A stretch of DNA of 64,000 bases. Origin: Candidatus Saccharimonadota bacterium (GTDB taxonomy: Bacteria; Patescibacteriota; Saccharimonadia; Saccharimonadales; Saccharimonadaceae). Where the stretch lies: NCBI GenBank assembly GCA_017514665.1, contig JAFWIX010000008.1:1-64000 (forward strand), given 5' to 3'. Numbering within the stretch: the stretch's first letter is position 1; every line of letters begins with the position of its first letter. A program made the translations under genes and the position numbers. Below, piece after piece: positions 6,348-48,901 of this stretch. The notes below the pieces were generated by a model. That model did no database searches. It worked only from the letters and a program-made list of their open reading frames with translations, and was not told the origin of the DNA.

Positions 6348-7760
6348 ATGAACAATAAGGTCATTCATCTGATCCCCATATTAGCATTTGCTGTTTTAAT
6401 GGGCTTTTTTGCATTTAATAGCAATATGGGTGTAGATACTGTTCACGCTGAAGCTAGTAACGCTCAAGCCTCATTAGAACTAGATCCAGTCATAGATATC
6501 TCAGCTCCTAGTACAGTAACTCTAAACTGTACTCCAGGCTCTACCGATGCTACTTCTCAACTTTGTACTAGTAATGCTACGGTTAGTGTAACCACTAATA
6601 ATATTACTGGCTATACTTTACAAATGAATACTACTTCTGGTTCTTCTAACTCTCTCACTAATTCAGTTGCCTCTCCTGCTGCTACTATCCCTACACTAAG
6701 CCAAGCTTACAGCTCGGCTAACTTTCCGGTAAACTACTGGGGCTATACTGGTGGTACAGATAAATCAAGTGAAACAGGAGGCTATAATTGCTCTACTAAC
6801 TATTGTCCTATTCTAGCTTATGAATCTACTGCAACTAACTATGCTCCTAACCACACTATTAAACAAACCGATGCTCCAGCTAATAATTCTACTACTACTT
6901 TAACCTTTGCTGGTAAAGTAAACACTACTAAACCTTCTGGTACTTATACTACTTCCATTACCTTTACGGCAGTGACTAATGAACCACCTACTCAACCAAT
7001 CACCAATGGTATGGATATGCAGGACATAGACTCAGAAGTCTGTGGAGCCACTTCTACGGATATCACTTACACGGTAGTAGATAGCAGAGACAGCAAAGAA
7101 TATACTGTAGCCAGACTTCAAGACGGCAACTGCTGGATGACCCAAAACCTTGCCCTAGGTAGTTCCACCGCTATGAACCTCACCCAAGCTAATTCTAATG
7201 TAGGCCCCAGTGGTTTTACTCTTCCGGCTAGTGTGACTGAAGGTGACTGGACTAATTCTCTAAATGATCCAGCAGTCTTTGACTACGCTGGCAACCACCC
7301 ATCTGAGCAAGCTACCACTAAATATGGTAACTATTATAATTGGGCTGCCGCTACTGCTGGTTCTGGTACTAATACTGCTGGCGAGGATGCTCCATACGAC
7401 ATCTGCCCCAAGAACTGGCGTTTACCATCTGCTGGTACTGACGATATAACTAACGATGAGTTTTACACGATGCTCAGCTACTATATCACCACCGGCACTT
7501 GGGATGATTTATACACACAACATTGGTCTGGTGTTACTATATCTCAACTTACCAATGCTCCAATTTCTATTGTATTTTCGGGTTATTATTGGGGTGATTT
7601 TCGCGACCAAGACGCTAGTCACTTGTGGTCGTCTACCGTTTATAGTGATATTGGCGCTCGTTTCTTGAGCATAAAAGACAATGGCGACGTGTATCCGCGC
7701 AATACTTTTTACCGCAGAAGTATTGGTACCTCTATGCGCTGTTTGATACCGGGGGTGTAA
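6348..7760 (+). CDS. Secreted FISUMP-domain surface protein 1
   Basis: A 470-residue exported protein. An N-terminal signal sequence (about 1-35, ending VHAEA) is followed by a Thr/Ser/Asn-rich beta-type region (about 40-215) and a C-terminal FISUMP domain (about 230-470) with hallmarks QDGNCWMTQNLAL, YGNYYNW, ICPKNWRLPS and a final MRCL. FISUMP domains adopt a C-type-lectin-like fold and are thought to be surface or adhesin modules. No anchor motif or C-terminal membrane helix is seen. It is one of four paralogues in the window; long stretches of DNA are nearly identical to the gene at 41107 (compare 6437-6706 with 41194-41460 and 7070-7190 with 41820-41940), while the last 100 codons differ. 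Codons are pyrimidine-rich, unlike the flanking genes. Confidence 0.88.
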   Translation: MNNKVIHLIPILAFAVLMGFFAFNSNMGVDTVHAEASNAQASLELDPVIDISAPSTVTLNCTPGSTDATSQLCTSNATVSVTTNNITGYTLQMNTTSGSSNSLTNSVASPAATIPTLSQAYSSANFPVNYWGYTGGTDKSSETGGYNCSTNYCPILAYESTATNYAPNHTIKQTDAPANNSTTTLTFAGKVNTTKPSGTYTTSITFTAVTNEPPTQPITNGMDMQDIDSEVCGATSTDITYTVVDSRDSKEYTVARLQDGNCWMTQNLALGSSTAMNLTQANSNVGPSGFTLPASVTEGDWTNSLNDPAVFDYAGNHPSEQATTKYGNYYNWAAATAGSGTNTAGEDAPYDICPKNWRLPSAGTDDITNDEFYTMLSYYITTGTWDDLYTQHWSGVTISQLTNAPISIVFSGYYWGDFRDQDASHLWSSTVYSDIGARFLSIKDNGDVYPRNTFYRRSIGTSMRCLIPGV

Positions 7761-20298: not shown

Positions 20299-21702
20299 TT
20301 ATGTGCTAGGCACCAAACATCGAATTGATTGGCCGGTGCGTTTATTCTCGTCATAGCGAGGGTAGATGTTGCCATCACTATCTGCGTATGAGAAGAAGGA
20401 ATCGGTGGGTTCAACACTGGCGGTAGATGCCCACCAGGTGCAGCTATCGCTCTGGCTGTACACATCACCGTAATAACCGCCAGAGAACACGAGAGAGATA
20501 GGGGGGGTAGTAAATTGAGAAGTGGGGACGTCAGACCAGTAATAATCCAAATTCCAAGTAGCACCAGAAATATAGTTGTTGAGCATAGTATAGAATTCGT
20601 TGTCAGTAGTGACGTCGGTGCCAACAGAGGGGAGTCGCCAGTTTTTAGGACAAATTGAGTGAGAAGCATCACTTGAAATAGTGGCGCTAGTACCAGAACC
20701 AGCAGTAGCAGCATTCCAGTTATAGTAGTTGCCGTACTTATTAGTCGCTTGCTGGGAAGGGTAGTTGCCAGCGTAATCGAAGAATTCAGGGCTGTCAAGG
20801 GAGCCAGCCCAACTACCTTCAGTGACACTGGCTGGAAGAGTGAAACCAGAAGGACCTACATTAGAATCAGCTTGAGTGAGGTTCATAGCGGTAGAGCCAC
20901 CTAAAGCGAGGTTTTGTGTCATCCAACAATTGCCATCTTGGAGTTTAGCTACAGTATATTCAGTATTATCACGAGTGTCAGTGAGAGTAAAGGTCTGATC
21001 CATAGTTGCGTTAGCGCAGGCTGCGCTATCAAAGTCTTGCATGGTAGTAATAGGTACCTCATTAGTTACAGCTGTAAAGGTTACTGACGTTGAATAAGTA
21101 CCAGAAGGTTTGCTGATATCTACTTTAGCTCCAAAGGTAATATCAGTGTTTGAAGTAGTAGATGGAGCATCAGTGACTTTAATGACGTGATTAGGAGCAT
21201 AAGATGAAGAGTCTGAATTATAAGCTAGGATAGGACAGTAGTTAGTAGAACAATCATAACCACCAGTCTCACTTGATTTATCTAGGCCACCTGTATAGCC
21301 CCAAGAGTTAATTGGGAAGTTTGATGAACTATAAGCTTGGAAAAGTGTAGGGATAGTAGCAGCTGGAGAAGCGGCTGAGTTAGTAAGAGCTGTAGGAGAA
21401 CCAGAAGTAGCATTCATTTGAAGAGTATAGCCAGTAATATTATTAGTACCTACACCTACAGTAACGTTAGTAGTACAAAGCTGTGCTGCTGCTGCTGTAG
21501 CTCCAGGGTTACAGTTAATAGTAGCAGTAGTTGGAGCAGAGATATTAATGACACTATCTACATTCAAAGCTATTTCTGTGTTAGTGCTAGCCTGAGTAGC
21601 ATGGGCGGATCCTGAATTAATACTTAGATTGCTACTAGAAATAAAAAGGCCTGCCAATAAGACAAACATTAAGAAGGGAATTACTCTGATGACCTTGTTC
21701 AT
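20299..21702 (-). CDS. Secreted FISUMP-domain surface protein 2
   Basis: A 467-residue exported paralogue of the 6348 and 41107 products. The start at 21702 (MNKVIRVIP) is chosen by the promoter 6 nt upstream; the frame stays open to 21777 but that region contains the promoter. Signal peptide about 1-37, Thr/Ser-rich N-terminal domain, then FISUMP (about 230-467) with QDGNCWMTQNLALGG, YGNYYNW, ICPKNWRLPS and a terminal IRCL. The N-terminal half is more diverged than the other two are from each other (for example HATQASTNTEIALNVD). The C-terminal face between WWAST and IRCL is again different. It is tail to tail with ileS, 3 nt apart. Confidence 0.88.
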   Translation of the reverse strand: MNKVIRVIPFLMFVLLAGLFISSSNLSINSGSAHATQASTNTEIALNVDSVINISAPTTATINCNPGATAAAAQLCTTNVTVGVGTNNITGYTLQMNATSGSPTALTNSAASPAATIPTLFQAYSSSNFPINSWGYTGGLDKSSETGGYDCSTNYCPILAYNSDSSSYAPNHVIKVTDAPSTTSNTDITFGAKVDISKPSGTYSTSVTFTAVTNEVPITTMQDFDSAACANATMDQTFTLTDTRDNTEYTVAKLQDGNCWMTQNLALGGSTAMNLTQADSNVGPSGFTLPASVTEGSWAGSLDSPEFFDYAGNYPSQQATNKYGNYYNWNAATAGSGTSATISSDASHSICPKNWRLPSVGTDVTTDNEFYTMLNNYISGATWNLDYYWSDVPTSQFTTPPISLVFSGGYYGDVYSQSDSCTWWASTASVEPTDSFFSYADSDGNIYPRYDENKRTGQSIRCLVPST

Positions 21703-21708
21703 ACTTAT

Positions 21709-21737
21709 ATTGTATATGGTTAAAACGAAAAATGCAA
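21709..21737 (-). promoter_or_regulatory. Promoter of FISUMP gene 2, leaderless type
   Basis: On the minus strand TTGCAT (21732-21737), 17-nt spacer, TACAAT (21709-21714), then 6 nt to the ATG. Confidence 0.7.
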
Positions 21738-21760
21738 GTATGAAATAAACATAAACACTA

Positions 21761-21789
21761 TTGACAAATTTAAGCAAGTGTGCTATAAT
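21761..21789 (+). promoter_or_regulatory. Consensus promoter for the 49-aa gene
   Basis: TTGACA (21761-21766), 17-nt spacer, TATAAT (21784-21789) with TG extension: one of the strongest promoters in the window. The leader is about 65 nt. Confidence 0.82.
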
Positions 21790-26115: not shown

Positions 26116-29100
26116 ATGCCAGGAGAAGCTGAGGGAGGAAATACAAATCCAGAAGGATCTAATCCTACTCCCGAACAAAACAATGGGAACAATGAGTGGA
26201 AAATTTTGGAAGATGTAGATTTTGCTACCGCGGAAGTTACTGAAGAAAGTAAGAAGAATATTGCCGCAGAAAGGGCCAGAGCGAGATTAGAAGCCGAACA
26301 AAAAGAATGGGCTAAAGATCATAAGGTCTTGGGCGATGAAAAAGGCTTGGGGCGAGTATTGAAGTCATTATGGCTCTCTGCTAGGAATACTGGTAAACAT
26401 CTTAAAGAAGATGGTATTGGCAAAACCATTAAAAACACGGCAAAATTTGGTATTGGCCGTGACGTGACGCTTGGTAAGTATGCTGGCGAAGAGTTAAAAG
26501 AAATCAACAAAATTGAAGAAGCGGGCGGTAATATATATACTGGAACTGGAGAAGAAGGAGAAGAGGGAGAAAACGCTGCTGCTTGGCAATCAATGGCGGC
26601 GAGGGTCGCTCTTGCTAGTCAACAGAAAAGAGAAAAAGATAGAGATATATTGTCCAAAAAAGAAGGAGAGGGATTTGAGGAAGACCTCAGCGAAGAGAAT
26701 AAAGATATCAAGGACGAGCTTAAGAAAGTAATAAACAGAGTCAACAGTTTAAATGATGTAGATAAAGACAAACGTGACGAACAATTAAAAGACATAATAG
26801 AGGATTTTGAACAATCAGTCTTTAATGTTCTTGGCGATGACGGCAGAAAGAAGATGAAGAGAGGTAATTATACCTTGGCAGCCAAGAATGTGGCGGAACA
26901 GATATATGATAAGAGAGTAGATGATGAAGCCTTTACTCTTTCAGTAGACCAGATAACAGATTTCCTTGATAAGCAAGTGCATTTTAGTGCTGGTCAAGTA
27001 GAAGCTGGTTTGGCGCAAACAGAAAGTCTGACTACTACTACTAAAGCGGTGATGGATTTGGGGGCCAAAGGCGCTGAAGCTCTTGGTTTGACAGTAGGTG
27101 TCGCTTTGATAATTGGTGGCTTTGCAACTAAGAAAGGCGCGAAGGCGGCATTGATAGCAAGTGGCGTAGGCGCATTGGCTTATGGTGCCGTAGCTGCGGG
27201 TTGGGCCTGGAAGAATGCTGGTAAAAAAGCTGAGAGCGAGATAATATCCGAAAAGAAACAAGCTACACTCGGTGAAGGCTTGGATTATCAATTGTCAGCG
27301 AGTGATGCATTAAAGAGCATGGACGATATTCAGAAGACTTTGGATAAGGGAGAAAACCTAAGCGACGACCAATTGAAGGCTCTAGCAGACATAAAAGCAA
27401 GAATCGCATTGGAAAAAGAAGCCAAGGCGGCAAAGATTACAAAAACCAATGTAGATTTATTTAATTATGCTGATGGTAATGAAGATGCCTTGAAAAATGA
27501 CTTAAAGAATCAATTGGACAGACTGGAGTTGAGCAAAGAAGATTTAGAAAAATTAGAAGGCAGTGATGATGGGAAAGTAGAAGGGTATATAGACACTGCA
27601 GAAGCACCCATAATTAAGCAACTCAAAGAGCAAAGAAATATTGATGTGAAACGCATCAGAAGAAGGCAAAGAGAAGCTGCCTTAGCTGCCGGAATTGTGG
27701 GTACTGCTATTGGTGAAGGTATTGATTTTGCGGAAGCGGGAACTGGTGGCGCAGAGGCACTTTATGACACTACCAGCAACGCTGCTAGTGGCGCCAAAGA
27801 GGCTATAGAAAATCATTTTAACCCCGAAGATGCTGCTGGCGCAGACGATGGAAAAGTTCCGGAGTTTGAAAGTTTTGAAAACTCGTCAATTGAATCTATT
27901 GAGGGCGAACTGGAAGACCCGAGCAATAAAACTGAATATTGGAATAGCGAGGGCGAGCTAAAGCCAGAAGTAACAGAAAAATTAGAAGAACGTTTTGAAG
28001 TTGAAGAAGCATCTAATGCAGATGAAATTGATAAACTAGTTTCTACTACGGGGGAATCACAAAGCGTACAAGAATTTATCGACGATAATCCCGACAAAAT
28101 TACGCATATCAATAACAGACACTGGAGTGGCGGTGATATATCAATTGGTAATCCACGCATTGAAGGTGATGAGTATGTGATAGACGTGACTTCAAGAAGT
28201 GGCGCAGATGTAGATAATATGCAATTTGCGATGTCGGCAAACGAAGACCATCAGATGGATGTGCTTACTGCAGATATTGAGGATAGGCAGATTCGTATTC
28301 CGGTAGATAGTCCAGAGGCGAGTATGTTCTCGACCGACGGCAGAGGTATCACAACCTTTGATGGGCGCTTCGGTGAAATTTTGTCGAATGATGGTAGCGG
28401 CAATATGACAGTTTATAGTACGATTGAAGGTAATGGTGTAGATTCTGTCAGCACGCCAGAAATCGTAGAAGCACATACTTACAACGTGACTGATCCTGCA
28501 ACGAATAAGGAAGTGCAAATTTCCACACCTGGTAGCGAGATTAATGAAGAAGACTTGGCTGCTGGTGGTATCGTAGAAGGCGCTACAGCCACAGTGGATA
28601 GCGAGACAGTTAATAACTGGAGATTAGAAGAAGGTACAACTTACGATAAAAACTTAGATGTCTATAATTTGTCTGGTAAATTGAGTTCAAATAACTTGGG
28701 CCCATCGCTATACAACGGCAATAAGTCAGAAGCAGAAATGTTTGAGGGCTTAATGGGCGGTATTGCAACTTCGCCAGAGCAGACTTCGTTGTGGCAGACG
28801 GCTCTTAATATGGAAGGTGCTAGCAATGTAGATAGCGTCAGCGAGTTGAATGGTTTGGCGAACAACATAGCAAGCGCTAATTCGGCAGAATATATGGCGA
28901 CTATGAATGATACGCAAAATGAAATTCTATCAAGAATGGAAGAAGGTCAAATTGAATCGGTGAACTTTTCCGAGGAGCCGTATACCAGATCTATTTATGA
29001 ATATCCAAATGGCAGTGATGGCACAGTGTTGCAAACTACACCGATTAACGGAACTTCTGGTCACGGCTTGAGACTTTTGGATACTCATGGTAATAATATC

Positions 29101-30066
29101 TTGATGTACGATGAGGCCGGTAACGATATTTCAGGCAATTTGCGCGAAATTTACAATGTGCCAGAAGGTCAAAAGGGTGAGTTTGTAGTACGTTTGGATT
29201 GTGGTGGTCAGATAGTCTGGGTGCCAGAACAAAGTGACGTGACTGTAGGTGAGGTTGTTGGCGGCAGTACTGGTGGCGGTAATAATCCTGGATCTGGCGG
29301 CGGTACCCCAACTCCACCGACTCCACCAGATAATCCAACTCCACCAGAGACTCCTCCAGATAATCCGCCAGACAATCCTCCAGATAATCCACCAGACAAT
29401 CCTCCAGATAATCCACCAGACAATCCTCCAGAAAATCCTCCAGAAAATCCACCAGAAAATCCACCAGAAAACCCACCAGAAGAGATAGAACAAAAGAATC
29501 CTGAAACTGAGGAGAGGATTGCAAACGACGAAGAATTACAGGGTGTTGTAGATAAGGATACTCCGCGAAATGAAGAAGTGACAGAAGATAAGAATCATGA
29601 CGAAGGTGGTGGCGCACAAGAAAATGAATCGACAGGTAGTGCAGAAGAAGCTAGTACGCAGGTCGAAACGGATAGCAAAGAAAGAACGAGCGAAACAACG
29701 CAGGATGACGTAAAAGCAGCTACGGAAGCAAAGAGAAAATCAGAAACAACTTCAGGTGACTCTAGCAGTAAGTCTGATGGCGGCTCCAGTGGTGGATCCG
29801 GTGGTAGCTCTGGTGGCTCCAGTGGCGGTTCCGGCGGTAGCTCTGGTGGCAGCTCTGGTGGCAGCTCTGGTGGCTCCAGTGGTGGATCCGGTGGTAGCTC
29901 TGGTGGCTCCAGTGGCGGTTCCGGCGGTAGCTCTGGTGGCAGCTCTGGTGGCTCCAGTGGCGGTTCTGGCGGTAGCTCTGGTGGTAGCTCTGGTGGCTCT
30001 GACGGCGGAGGCGGTGGTGACTCCGGCAGTAATGAAAGTTCGCAGGAAGGAGGCGAAGGTGAATAA
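26116..30066 (+). CDS. Giant repeat-bearing membrane/surface protein (1316 aa)
   Basis: The protein begins after GGAGG at 26107. Residues 1-310 are charged and helical (many Glu/Lys). A hydrophobic hairpin follows at about 318-365 (ALGLTVGVALIIGGFATKKG then ALIASGVGALAYGAVAAGWA), the only membrane candidate. About 430-540 is coiled-coil-like. From about 640 to 1040 there is a mostly beta, Asn/Gly/Ser-rich part. A proline-rich tract of DNPP and ENPP units (about 1073-1123) and a Gly-Ser tail (about 1220-1300) end the protein. There is no N-terminal signal peptide, so export would need the internal hairpin or another route. No family recognised. Low-complexity tracts vary easily in length. Its neighbours suggest an envelope or host-contact role. 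Confidence 0.78.
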   Translation: MPGEAEGGNTNPEGSNPTPEQNNGNNEWKILEDVDFATAEVTEESKKNIAAERARARLEAEQKEWAKDHKVLGDEKGLGRVLKSLWLSARNTGKHLKEDGIGKTIKNTAKFGIGRDVTLGKYAGEELKEINKIEEAGGNIYTGTGEEGEEGENAAAWQSMAARVALASQQKREKDRDILSKKEGEGFEEDLSEENKDIKDELKKVINRVNSLNDVDKDKRDEQLKDIIEDFEQSVFNVLGDDGRKKMKRGNYTLAAKNVAEQIYDKRVDDEAFTLSVDQITDFLDKQVHFSAGQVEAGLAQTESLTTTTKAVMDLGAKGAEALGLTVGVALIIGGFATKKGAKAALIASGVGALAYGAVAAGWAWKNAGKKAESEIISEKKQATLGEGLDYQLSASDALKSMDDIQKTLDKGENLSDDQLKALADIKARIALEKEAKAAKITKTNVDLFNYADGNEDALKNDLKNQLDRLELSKEDLEKLEGSDDGKVEGYIDTAEAPIIKQLKEQRNIDVKRIRRRQREAALAAGIVGTAIGEGIDFAEAGTGGAEALYDTTSNAASGAKEAIENHFNPEDAAGADDGKVPEFESFENSSIESIEGELEDPSNKTEYWNSEGELKPEVTEKLEERFEVEEASNADEIDKLVSTTGESQSVQEFIDDNPDKITHINNRHWSGGDISIGNPRIEGDEYVIDVTSRSGADVDNMQFAMSANEDHQMDVLTADIEDRQIRIPVDSPEASMFSTDGRGITTFDGRFGEILSNDGSGNMTVYSTIEGNGVDSVSTPEIVEAHTYNVTDPATNKEVQISTPGSEINEEDLAAGGIVEGATATVDSETVNNWRLEEGTTYDKNLDVYNLSGKLSSNNLGPSLYNGNKSEAEMFEGLMGGIATSPEQTSLWQTALNMEGASNVDSVSELNGLANNIASANSAEYMATMNDTQNEILSRMEEGQIESVNFSEEPYTRSIYEYPNGSDGTVLQTTPINGTSGHGLRLLDTHGNNILMYDEAGNDISGNLREIYNVPEGQKGEFVVRLDCGGQIVWVPEQSDVTVGEVVGGSTGGGNNPGSGGGTPTPPTPPDNPTPPETPPDNPPDNPPDNPPDNPPDNPPDNPPENPPENPPENPPENPPEEIEQKNPETEERIANDEELQGVVDKDTPRNEEVTEDKNHDEGGGAQENESTGSAEEASTQVETDSKERTSETTQDDVKAATEAKRKSETTSGDSSSKSDGGSSGGSGGSSGGSSGGSGGSSGGSSGGSSGGSSGGSGGSSGGSSGGSGGSSGGSSGGSSGGSGGSSGGSSGGSDGGGGGDSGSNESSQEGGEGE
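29332..29483 (+). repeat. Tandem 12-bp repeats coding (D/E)NPP
   Basis: About a dozen 12-nt units of the type GATAATCCTCCA or GAAAATCCACCA run in tandem, coding DNPP then ENPP. The units differ mainly at synonymous sites. Frame-neutral changes in copy number are possible. Confidence 0.85.
29776..30003 (+). repeat. Gly-Ser repeat tract with a 90-bp direct duplication
   Basis: The DNA codes repeated GGSSGGS units. A block starting near 29781 is repeated at an offset of exactly 90 bp (for example GGTGGATCCG at 29791 and 29881), identical for about 80 nt. The offset is a multiple of three, so expansion keeps the frame. Confidence 0.85.
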
Positions 30067-41106: not shown

Positions 41107-42516
41107 ATGAACAATAGGGTCATTAATCTAATTCCTGTACTGACATTTGTCATTTTGGCAGGTCTTTTTGCTTTTAATAGTATTGTTAGTATAGATACTG
41201 TTCACGCTGAAGCTAGTAACGCTCAAGCCTCATTAGAACTAGATCCAGTCATAGATATCTCAGCTCCTAGTACAGTAACTCTAAACTGTACTCCAGGTTC
41301 TACCGATGCTACCTCTCAACTTTGTACTAGTAATGCTACGATTAGTGTAACCACTAATAATATTGCTGGCTATACTTTACAAATGAATACTACTTCTGGT
41401 TCTTCTAACTCTCTCACTAATTCAGCTGCCTCTCCTGCTGCTACTATCCCTACACTAAGCCAAGCCTATACTTCAGCTAACTTTCCAGTAAACTCTTGGG
41501 GTTATACTGGAGGAACCGATAAATCAAGTGAAGCTGGCGGTTATGATTGTTCTACTAACTATTGTCCTATTCTAGCTTATGAATCTACTGCTTCTAATTA
41601 TGCTCCTAACCACACTATTAAACAAACCGATGCTCCAGCTAATAATTCTACTACTACTTTAACCTTTGCTGGTAGAGTTAACACTACTAAACCTTCTGGT
41701 ACTTATACTACTTCCATTACTTTTACGGCGGTGACTAATGAACCACCTTATAATGGCATAGTAAATGGCATGAATATGCAAGACATAGATTCTACCACTT
41801 GTACTGCCACTTCTACAGATATTACTTACACGGTAGTAGATAGCAGAGACAGCAAAGAATATACTGTAGCCAGGCTCCAAGACGGCAACTGCTGGATGAC
41901 CCAAAACCTTGCCCTAGGTAGTTCCACCGCTATGAACCTTACTCAAGCCAATTCTAATGTAGGTCCTAGTGGCTTCACTCTTCCTGCTAGCGTGACCGAA
42001 GGTAATTGGAGTATGTCTCCTGATAATCCAGAATTTTTCGATTATGCAGGCAATTATCCATCGCAACAGGCCTCTAATAAATACGGTAACTACTACAACT
42101 GGCCTGCCGCTACTGCTGGCTCTGGTACTAGTGCCACTACTTCTGGCGATGCTCAATATTCCATCTGTCCCAAGAACTGGCGCCTCCCTTCCGCTGGTAC
42201 TACCGCCACCACTAATAATGAATTCTATACGATGCTAAATAACTACATCACTACTGGCACCTGGTATGACCTCTATTGGTCCGGTGTCACTACTTCAGAG
42301 TTCACGAGTACCCCAGTTTCTCTTGTGTTTTCGGATAGCTATACTGGTTACGTGAGTGAAGACCATATTGGCGATTGGTGGTCATCTACTGCTGCTAGTA
42401 GTGGTAATGCATATTATTTAGAAGCTATTGCTGCCAACGGATACATAGGTCCACGCGATGACCGTTTTTATAAAGAACACGGTTATTCTATCAGGTGTTT
42501 GGTGTCGGGGGTGTAG
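41107..42516 (+). CDS. Secreted FISUMP-domain surface protein 3
   Basis: A 469-residue exported paralogue nearly identical at DNA level to FISUMP gene 1 over the signal-peptide end and N-terminal domain (41194-41460 against 6437-6706) and over the first part of FISUMP. The C-terminal face differs clearly (WWSSTAASSGNAYYLEAIA here, LWSSTVYSDIGARFLSI there), ending again in IRCL. Signal peptide about 1-36; motifs QDGNCWMTQNLAL, YGNYYNW and ICPKNWRLPSAG are present. The pattern of constant scaffold and changed tip suggests recombination between copies plus selection on the binding face. Confidence 0.88.
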   Translation: MNNRVINLIPVLTFVILAGLFAFNSIVSIDTVHAEASNAQASLELDPVIDISAPSTVTLNCTPGSTDATSQLCTSNATISVTTNNIAGYTLQMNTTSGSSNSLTNSAASPAATIPTLSQAYTSANFPVNSWGYTGGTDKSSEAGGYDCSTNYCPILAYESTASNYAPNHTIKQTDAPANNSTTTLTFAGRVNTTKPSGTYTTSITFTAVTNEPPYNGIVNGMNMQDIDSTTCTATSTDITYTVVDSRDSKEYTVARLQDGNCWMTQNLALGSSTAMNLTQANSNVGPSGFTLPASVTEGNWSMSPDNPEFFDYAGNYPSQQASNKYGNYYNWPAATAGSGTSATTSGDAQYSICPKNWRLPSAGTTATTNNEFYTMLNNYITTGTWYDLYWSGVTTSEFTSTPVSLVFSDSYTGYVSEDHIGDWWSSTAASSGNAYYLEAIAANGYIGPRDDRFYKEHGYSIRCLVSGV

Positions 42517-46267: not shown

Positions 46268-48901
46268 ATGAAGGTTATTAGGAATAAACATTTTAGCGTG
46301 TATGATTTAAGGTTTTCTGGTCTGCAGTTAGCCTTGGCTTCTGGCGGTTTGATACTATTAGTAATTGGCCTTTTTATGGCGCCCAATTTTGTTTCAGAAT
46401 CTTCCTATGCCGATCCCGTCCCTCCCGCTGCGGACCCTTCTATTTCTATCGTTCCAGCTGGTGGTATCAACCTCGTAATGACTCCTATTGCTGGTTCAGG
46501 TGGTACTTTTGGTACTGCCATAGCTAATGTTACAGTAAATACCAGCAATACTACTGGCTATACCTTCACTATGAATACCGAAACTACCGACACTGATCTT
46601 AAAAATTCTAAAGTAGACTATACTACCCATCCAGACCAAAAGATTACCAATCTTACTACCACTACCACTGCCACAGACTTCCCATTTAATAAATGGGGCT
46701 ATAACGTACACAAAGCTGGTACTTACATTAAAGGTGCAGCCAACACTTATGTACCAGTTCCAAATAGCGGCAGCTCAGATGCAGATCGCCAAATTGAAGT
46801 TACTGACGCTGCTGGCTCTAATAACTATACTTTCGCTTATGGCGTAAAAGCTAACTTAAACCTACCATCTGGTGATTATAATACTACTTTAGTGTTCTCG
46901 GCTACGGCTAATCCAGTGCCTATTATGATGCAAGACTTCGATTATGCTGCTTGCCAAGCCCTATCTACTGGTGACACCGTCACTATGTACGACGAACGTG
47001 ACAACGAAGAATATCTCATTGGTAAGCTTGCAGACGATAACTGTTGGATGCTAGACAATCTGAGATTGGACCTTACTGATTCCACTATTCTTAACTCTCT
47101 CACTACCACAAATACCAACGTAGATTCTGCCTCTCTCACTAGCCTCAAGAGCGGCAATCGTTCTGCTGGCGCTAGATATGCTAGTAGTGGTTTTGAGGCA
47201 TGGGATTCTAACCATACTACAAACCAATACAATCAAGCCAAAGCCAATGCTGATTATAAAAATACTACTACCACTAGTTACGGCGCGGGCAGTGGTAAAA
47301 TTGGTGTCTATTATAACTTTTGTGCTGCTTCGGCTGGTAACTACTGCTATGACAAAAATGCTGGTGTAGACGATACTAGCACTCTTCAAGATGCCCAGTA
47401 TGATATCTGCCCTAAGAATTGGCGCATGCCTACTAGTGATTCTAGTGGTGAATACCAAGCCCTCCTCACCGCATACAATAACAATCAAACTGCTACCGAT
47501 TCCGGCAGTTTCCAATACAACCTGTCTACGCCGCTTTCTGGCCTCTTCTACAGTGGCTCGGCGAACGTTCAGGGTATCTACGGCGACTTCTGGTCTTCTA
47601 CTTGGTACGATGCTTACGATATGGGAGTCCTCGACGTCAGTGCTAGCTATGTCGATCTGTCCTATTCCAACGGTCGCGACACTGGCTTTTCAGTTAGGTG
47701 TATGGTCGACCCTTCTCTTTATAAAAGAGTTGCTAGTATGAGTAAAGGCACCCAGACTGCTGCAGACCTCCAAGCCGCGATCACCGTCCCTACCTCCGCA
47801 GATCGTACTCAGGATACAAGCAATTCTGGCGTTTATGAATATAATAGTAGTGTCTTTGGCACTTCTTCTGATGCTGCTAACACCAGCACTATCTACTACT
47901 ATCGTGGCGTCCTCGAAAATACTGTAGGTTCATACGGCTCAGATGGCTCCGCCGTGACTTATCCAAATTACGTTAAGCTCGGTGACACTTGTTGGCGAAT
48001 CGTAAGAACTACTGGCTCCGGTGGGGTAAAGATGATTTACAACGGCTCATATTCTGGCGGCACCACGGCTAACTCCTGCGCCAATACACAAACTAACGCT
48101 CAGGTCACCACTCAGGCCTTTGGTCTCAGAGGCAATTCTAAACAATCCACCTACTGGTACAGAAATATCAACCGTGTAGGTTACACTTTCAACGATAATT
48201 CCAGCATCCAGGATATCACTACTACTACCAGTGTAGATACGGTATTTGGTAGCAATGCTAATCCAGCCCTTAATAACGCTCGCTCTAATATTAAAACCTA
48301 TATCGAGGATACCTGGTACCCTAGCGCCTTATCCAGCTATACCAGCATTCTAGAAGCCAGTGCCGGCTATTGTAGCGACCGTACTGCTTATTCAGATGAC
48401 ACTACCTCAACCACACTCTCTACCATCCCACCCTATGCCACTTCAAGCGCCACAATGTACTTTGGTGCTTACGGTAGAAACGTAAACGCTACTAACGCTA
48501 ATAAAACCCCATCCCTTACCTGCCCCAGAAGTACCGTGAACCGCTACCGTTATGTAGCAAACAGTACTGGTGTATCTAATGAACTAAAATATCCTGCCGC
48601 TCTGCTTACTGCTGATGAAGCCTCCTTTGCTGGTTCGGGTAGAAGTACCGCTACAGAAGGCTCCAGCTACCATGCTAATAGCTTCTTGCGTTCCGGTTCG
48701 ACCTTTTGGTTGCTCTCGCCGTACTACCGCACCTCGGGCGGCTATGCGTACGAGTTCTACCTGTACTCGGACGGCGGCTTGAGCAGCACCCGCGTGAGCA
48801 ACTCGGTCGGTGTGCGGCCTGCCATTTCTCTTAAATCTGGAATTATTCCTGCCTCCGGTACTGGCACCGCTACAGATCCTTGGGTGGTGGATGCGCCATA
48901 G
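46268..48901 (+). CDS. Large secreted FISUMP/C-type-lectin-like surface protein 4
   Basis: An 877-residue exported protein. An N-terminal hydrophobic signal (about 17-45) precedes a Thr-rich domain (about 50-215), then a FISUMP domain (about 220-485; ADDNCWMLDNLRL, YDICPKNWRMPTS, FWSSTWYD, VRCMV), and a second, different C-terminal domain (about 500-877) with FWLLSPYYRTS near 814-824 and SVGVRPAISLKSG near 846-858. That end resembles DUF6273-type C-type-lectin-like folds, which include known targets of diversity-generating retroelements. The DNA for residues 806-852 is strikingly GC-rich against the rest of the gene. No C-terminal anchor is seen. No reverse transcriptase is present in the window. 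Confidence 0.85.
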   Translation: MKVIRNKHFSVYDLRFSGLQLALASGGLILLVIGLFMAPNFVSESSYADPVPPAADPSISIVPAGGINLVMTPIAGSGGTFGTAIANVTVNTSNTTGYTFTMNTETTDTDLKNSKVDYTTHPDQKITNLTTTTTATDFPFNKWGYNVHKAGTYIKGAANTYVPVPNSGSSDADRQIEVTDAAGSNNYTFAYGVKANLNLPSGDYNTTLVFSATANPVPIMMQDFDYAACQALSTGDTVTMYDERDNEEYLIGKLADDNCWMLDNLRLDLTDSTILNSLTTTNTNVDSASLTSLKSGNRSAGARYASSGFEAWDSNHTTNQYNQAKANADYKNTTTTSYGAGSGKIGVYYNFCAASAGNYCYDKNAGVDDTSTLQDAQYDICPKNWRMPTSDSSGEYQALLTAYNNNQTATDSGSFQYNLSTPLSGLFYSGSANVQGIYGDFWSSTWYDAYDMGVLDVSASYVDLSYSNGRDTGFSVRCMVDPSLYKRVASMSKGTQTAADLQAAITVPTSADRTQDTSNSGVYEYNSSVFGTSSDAANTSTIYYYRGVLENTVGSYGSDGSAVTYPNYVKLGDTCWRIVRTTGSGGVKMIYNGSYSGGTTANSCANTQTNAQVTTQAFGLRGNSKQSTYWYRNINRVGYTFNDNSSIQDITTTTSVDTVFGSNANPALNNARSNIKTYIEDTWYPSALSSYTSILEASAGYCSDRTAYSDDTTSTTLSTIPPYATSSATMYFGAYGRNVNATNANKTPSLTCPRSTVNRYRYVANSTGVSNELKYPAALLTADEASFAGSGRSTATEGSSYHANSFLRSGSTFWLLSPYYRTSGGYAYEFYLYSDGGLSSTRVSNSVGVRPAISLKSGIIPASGTGTATDPWVVDAP
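48683..48823 (+). other. Candidate variable region (DGR target-like cassette)
   Basis: These 47 codons (residues 806-852) end in G or C in 41 cases, and none ends in A, unlike the surrounding codons. Many codons are NNC types (TAC, CGC, ACC, GGC, AGC, GAC, AAC), as expected if AAC codons of a template had been changed at adenines. The position, in the last strands of a C-type-lectin-like domain just before VRPAISL, is the usual one for such variable regions. A matching template repeat was not found here. Confidence 0.45.

Follow-up and report, generated by a model that had tools for sequence, protein, structure and literature searches.

Diversity-generating retroelements (DGRs), in which a reverse transcriptase randomises adenines, are common in CPR bacteria (PMC8144416, PMC10221324), and both FISUMP and DUF6273 proteins are already known as DGR targets (PMC4159848, PMC10743442, PMC11792537). 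For DUF6273, a C-type-lectin-like fold is predicted and the variable region (VR) lies at the C-terminal end (PMC10743442, PMC11792537). Remote targets, and also targets without a reverse transcriptase (RT), have been described in Treponema denticola (PMC4891356), Thiohalocapsa (PMC10907252), and Nanoarchaeota (PMC4372165), and targets with several VRs are also known (PMC10907252). Here we analysed a 64,000-nucleotide stretch of DNA (the window) from a Candidatus Saccharimonadota bacterium, whose genome assembly (G000) consists of 10 contigs and is 95.65% complete. One gene in the window encodes a protein with an N-terminal leader and repeats, followed by a FISUMP domain and then a DUF6273 domain; a VR was mapped in each of the two domains (Table 1). 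fusA (48993) is the direct next gene 3' of this target gene, with no cassette assembled in between.

Table 1. Position, strand, and basis of assignment of the target gene and its variable segments in the window.
Feature	Coordinates	Strand	Basis
Target gene, 877 aa	46268..48901	+	ORF
VR-1, variable codons of FISUMP domain	47543..47683	+	Codon-position differences from C4, C5, and C7 paralogues
VR-2, DGR variable region, DUF6273 end, 46 codons, LRSG...VRPA	48686..48823	+	Ungapped TR match, 4 sister species
Constant 3' anchor of VR-2, GGTGTGCGGCCTGCCATTTC, at IMH place	48809..48828	+	G052/G012/G023 TR/VR alignments

An earlier, sequence-only reading had noticed a DGR-like segment at 48683-48823, placed it at the end of a FISUMP protein, and assigned it to a C-type-lectin-like domain. 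The FISUMP domain is indeed present, being recognised by alignment with several same-genome paralogues, but it lies earlier in the gene and carries a VR of its own that had been missed. The segment itself sits at the end of a domain that is not FISUMP but DUF6273 (PF19789), as judged by a sub-threshold Pfam match that covers the domain end only (aa 802-857; score 19.2 bits where the cut-off is 23.5; E 0.0012). By analogy with published DUF6273 work (PMC10743442), the domain would adopt a C-type-lectin-like fold with VR-2 at its end. A sequence search of the PDB found no relative, and AlphaFold modelling of the DUF6273 domain from 7 sequences gave a pLDDT of 30. Relatives of the domain are encoded by 38 of the 147 genomes in the genus set; those with names are MAGs of Saccharibacteria, and ruminant guts were the source of several; the nearest genus relative of the VR-2 segment shows 70% protein identity. 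Elsewhere in the window, 26116-30066 encodes a 1316-aa protein whose C-terminal end has long tandem repeats, both proline-rich and Ser-Gly-Gly.

The codon bias that had drawn attention to the segment was confirmed. Read in frame, 48683-48823 has G or C at the third position of 41 of its 47 codons and A at none, while the rest of the target gene (45-codon VR set aside) has ∼41% GC3 and contains 128 A-ending codons. The segment ties for the top GC3 among all 47-codon stretches of the gene, and none of 20,000 within-gene shuffles of synonymous codons produced a count of 41, whether at the segment's own position or elsewhere along the gene.

DUF6273-type RTs were found in 4 of the 147 genus genomes. 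In G012, G023, G052, and G103, a second copy of the VR, the template repeat (TR), is located ∼0.4-0.5 kb downstream of the target; it reads LRSGSNFWLLSPNNRNSNGNANEYNLNSNGNLNNNNVNNTNGVRPA or nearly so and is AAC-rich like DGR templates. These sister cassettes adjoin the DUF6273 target and comprise the target, the A-rich TR, an Avd-like protein, and an RT with a DGR motif; both the Avd-like protein and the RT, which bears IGxxxSQ and YMDD motifs, are encoded behind the TR. Within the best 70-base stretch of each TR/VR pair, mismatches at adenines and at other bases numbered 19 and 0 in G052, 23 and 0 in G012, 19 and 0 in G023, and 13 and 2 in G103. TR/VR pairs also accompany RT relatives (30-38% identity) in 19 of the 25 viral contigs checked, and the sister RT therefore belongs among DGR RTs. 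Two of the sister cassettes, those of G103 (L083) and G023 (L084), have an interrupted RT but retain the TR and VR, possibly reflecting a recent decay of the system. Five other RT loci of the genus with TR/VR pairs (L086, L088, L095, L096, and L097 in G001, G127, G009, G132, and G080, respectively) show TR/VR mismatches at adenines only (0-1 others) and are apparently DGRs of other target families.

The limits of VR-2 could be mapped from the sister TR/VR pairs to 48686-48823, followed by the constant 3' anchor up to ∼48828, and the coordinates first proposed thus proved accurate. Within these 46 codons GC3 is 40/46 with no A-ending codon, and the limits of the GC-rich stretch are exactly those of the TR/VR match. 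In the TR/VR alignments of G052, G012, and G023, the sister VRs contain GCCATTTC at the anchor place and their TRs contain GCACTTTC. The anchor of the target matches the sister VR ends; TR and VR diverge just behind it, as expected for IMH/IMH*, and by its position the anchor is probably the initiation-of-mutagenic-homing (IMH) site.

VR-2 aligned without gaps to the TRs of G012, G023, G052, and G103 over all 46 codons. The templates used in this comparison are those of other species and show 9-17 third-position differences from VR-2, so the native template is not identical to the sister TRs. At codon positions 1 and 2, depending on which of the four TRs is compared, 21-23 of the 36-39 template adenines have another base in VR-2, as do just 3-4 of the 53-56 remaining sites, an adenine excess with Fisher p values of 1.6e-7 to 1.6e-8. 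In the DNA upstream of VR-2, the same comparison gave p values of 0.17 and 0.51 and hence no sign of an adenine bias. When 30 VRs from the genus are taken together, template-A sites have an entropy of 1.65 bits, compared with 0.31 at other position 1 and 2 sites. The template adenines are distributed as 18 at codon position 1, 18 at position 2, and 1 at position 3, which explains the C/G-ending codons of VR-2: their third bases are inherited from the template. Since the differences from the sister TRs fall on template adenines and the flanking DNA is unbiased, the DGR interpretation already given by the sequence-only reading gains strong support: 48686-48823 is very probably the variable region of a DGR target, written by mutagenic retrohoming from an A-rich template. 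The VR-2 pattern is inexplicable unless a DGR has acted.

A related signature was found in VR-1. Compared with the C4, C7, and C5 paralogues, VR-1 has 1-3 third-position differences and 27-34 first- and second-position differences in 49-50 codons, while the 101 codons upstream have 20-32 third-position differences; Fisher tests of VR-1 against the upstream codons gave 1e-9 (C4), 8e-8 (C7), and 4e-4 (C5). The four FISUMP VR copies share one underlying framework, in which the variable sites are NNC/NNT codons, as expected if a single template had been copied into dispersed genes. With a template common to VR-1 and the dispersed paralogues, VR-1 was therefore written in trans. The target was thus written at least partly in trans, one of the two routes that had been envisaged; the other, in which the cassette arrived by recombination, need not be invoked. 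Three more FISUMP genes of the window (6348-7760, 20299-21777 on the minus strand, and 41107-42516) were considered as carriers of further VRs and rejected, as the differences between their C-terminal regions are spread over all three codon positions, with diverged third positions. They represent another subtype (type-2) devoid of the DGR signature and serve as a negative control for the VR-1 pattern. The combination of FISUMP and DUF6273 in one protein also occurs in sister genomes (L101, L021, and L106); at 5947-9120 of L101, a 1058-aa protein has FISUMP, DUF6273, and FISUMP in a row, possibly with three variable faces. In the literature consulted, which represents part of the field, we found no protein described as having VRs in two domain families, each written from a template of its own.

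The RT and the template had been reported as missing from the window, and a search of the whole 95.65% complete assembly likewise found no RT, TR, or Avd. No match was obtained to RVT_1 or to the sister RT alignment, nor to the sister Avd alignment in a search run without a positive control; A-tolerant patterns of both VRs matched only the VRs themselves, and a sister TR as query matched VR-2 alone. Absence of RT and template is one half of what the sequence-only reading had named as evidence against itself, and it is what the assembly shows, yet this assembly is incomplete and broken at these very gene families. The start of contig C8 and the ends of C2, C4, and C8 fall inside FISUMP-family genes (the C2 and C8 ends being assigned to the family by leader sequences); because four contig ends lie inside such genes, FISUMP-family repeats are break points of the assembly. 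G142 has three DUF6273 VRs whose third positions are identical except for 0-1, and no TR was found in that genome either. At C4:15164-15265 (L005 1501-1602, minus strand), directly behind a FISUMP gene, there is a truncated 3' end of a second DUF6273 gene, which is the remnant of a lost target.

Whether VR-2 is still being rewritten is a separate matter from how it arose, and only the former is touched by the possibility of a relict, in which an ancestral DGR wrote the VR, the RT, Avd, and TR were since lost, and the frozen segment will erode. The missing machinery would fit such a loss, as would the rarity of DUF6273-type RTs relative to the domain (4 compared with 38 genomes), the broken RTs of G103 and G023, the truncated remnant on C4, and the existence of T. 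denticola strains that have target genes without RT and TR (PMC4891356). VR-2 itself, however, is uneroded: in sister genomes, old copies have accumulated 5-11 codons ending in A and show a GC3 of 11-28 of 46, and by that measure the last rewriting of VR-2 was recent. Moreover, the FISUMP VRs of the same genome have frameworks alike almost base for base, and contig ends are located in FISUMP-family genes. A relict is therefore a plausible but, on balance, doubtful account. It is somewhat probable, in our judgement and not by computation, that the writer is still encoded outside the assembled part, in an unassembled region or on an element; by the same kind of judgement, a recent loss of the writer has a real though smaller chance.

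Accounts that dispense with retrohoming as the origin of the VR fare far worse. Diversifying selection on a binding face, combined with gene conversion between paralogues, could draw on the paralogues that exist and on the location of the varying codons in the probable ligand-binding face. Selection would nevertheless not hold third positions identical while positions 1 and 2 are replaced, and it would not limit changes to sites that are adenine in a separate non-coding repeat; the pattern is also lacking in the upstream DNA and in the type-2 FISUMP genes of the window, which have the same kind of domain. Plain positive selection is rejected by the TR comparison, given that the sister TRs are indeed templates, and an explanation without any retroelement is highly improbable. 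Horizontal import of a GC-rich cassette, perhaps of phage origin, that is still unadapted in codon usage might be suspected from the weak PHROGs match of the DUF6273 domain to a phage Hoc-like decoration family and from the DUF6273 DGR targets known in Faecalibacterium phages (PMC10743442, PMC11792537). Such an import is hardly credible and was rejected, as the same VR occupies the same place in the same domain across the genus, homology is just as strong in the part of the domain upstream of the VR, the GC-rich stretch coincides with the TR/VR limits, and relatives of the domain are absent from the viral contigs.

In the DGR mechanism that very probably acted here, an error-prone reverse transcriptase made cDNA from an A-rich template RNA and randomised the template adenines in doing so, and this cDNA took the place of the target segment 48686-48823 (mutagenic retrohoming). 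Non-adenine framework positions were kept, and AAC/AAT-type template codons became NNC/NNT codons in the DUF6273 domain. VR-1 in the FISUMP domain was written in trans from a different template, common to paralogues elsewhere in the genome. The target protein is probably a surface receptor or adhesin with a varied binding face. More tentatively, it may expose two hypervariable faces (FISUMP and DUF6273) in one surface protein, each written from its own template by a DGR acting in trans on the dispersed receptors of a very small genome, with the writer away from its targets and possibly on an element outside the chromosome assembly.

Cultured Saccharibacteria (TM7) live attached to other bacteria. 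Hypermutated surface proteins of gut and rumen members are a concrete, testable candidate for how they recognise their partners. Even in a draft genome that is missing the RT and TR, the VR by itself can reveal a DGR target, and third-position stability among paralogues together with templates from sister species offers a route to such orphan VRs. Surveys that demand an RT beside the repeat would miss them.

Among described systems, the sister DGR cassettes (G052:C30 and G012:C31, the latter being RGIG2252) resemble the target in DUF6273 domain, VR length and boundaries, and template framework; in those cassettes the target is followed immediately by the TR, the Avd-like protein, and the RT, whereas in our genome it is followed by fusA. 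The DUF6273 targets of Faecalibacterium phages and prophages (tentaclins; PMC10743442, PMC11792537) likewise have the VR at the C-terminal end of DUF6273, a domain with a predicted C-type-lectin-like fold. Tentaclins, however, are phage proteins encoded with their own cassette, whereas the present target is bacterial and no phage genes were seen in its neighbourhood. Similarly to our genome, T. denticola has several dispersed targets per genome, and some strains have targets without RT/TR (PMC4891356), but each strain contains one target family and one TR type, in contrast to the two domain families in one protein observed here. The DGRs of Thiohalocapsa PB-PSB1 share trans-diversified targets, multi-VR targets, and apparently incomplete loci (PMC10907252); the two VRs described here differ in lying in different domain families with different frameworks. 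The nanoarchaeal VRs also show adenine-directed differences without an RT gene and are either fossil or remotely diversified (PMC4372165), but these are archaeal, and the genes targeted are orphans that belong to neither DUF6273 nor FISUMP.
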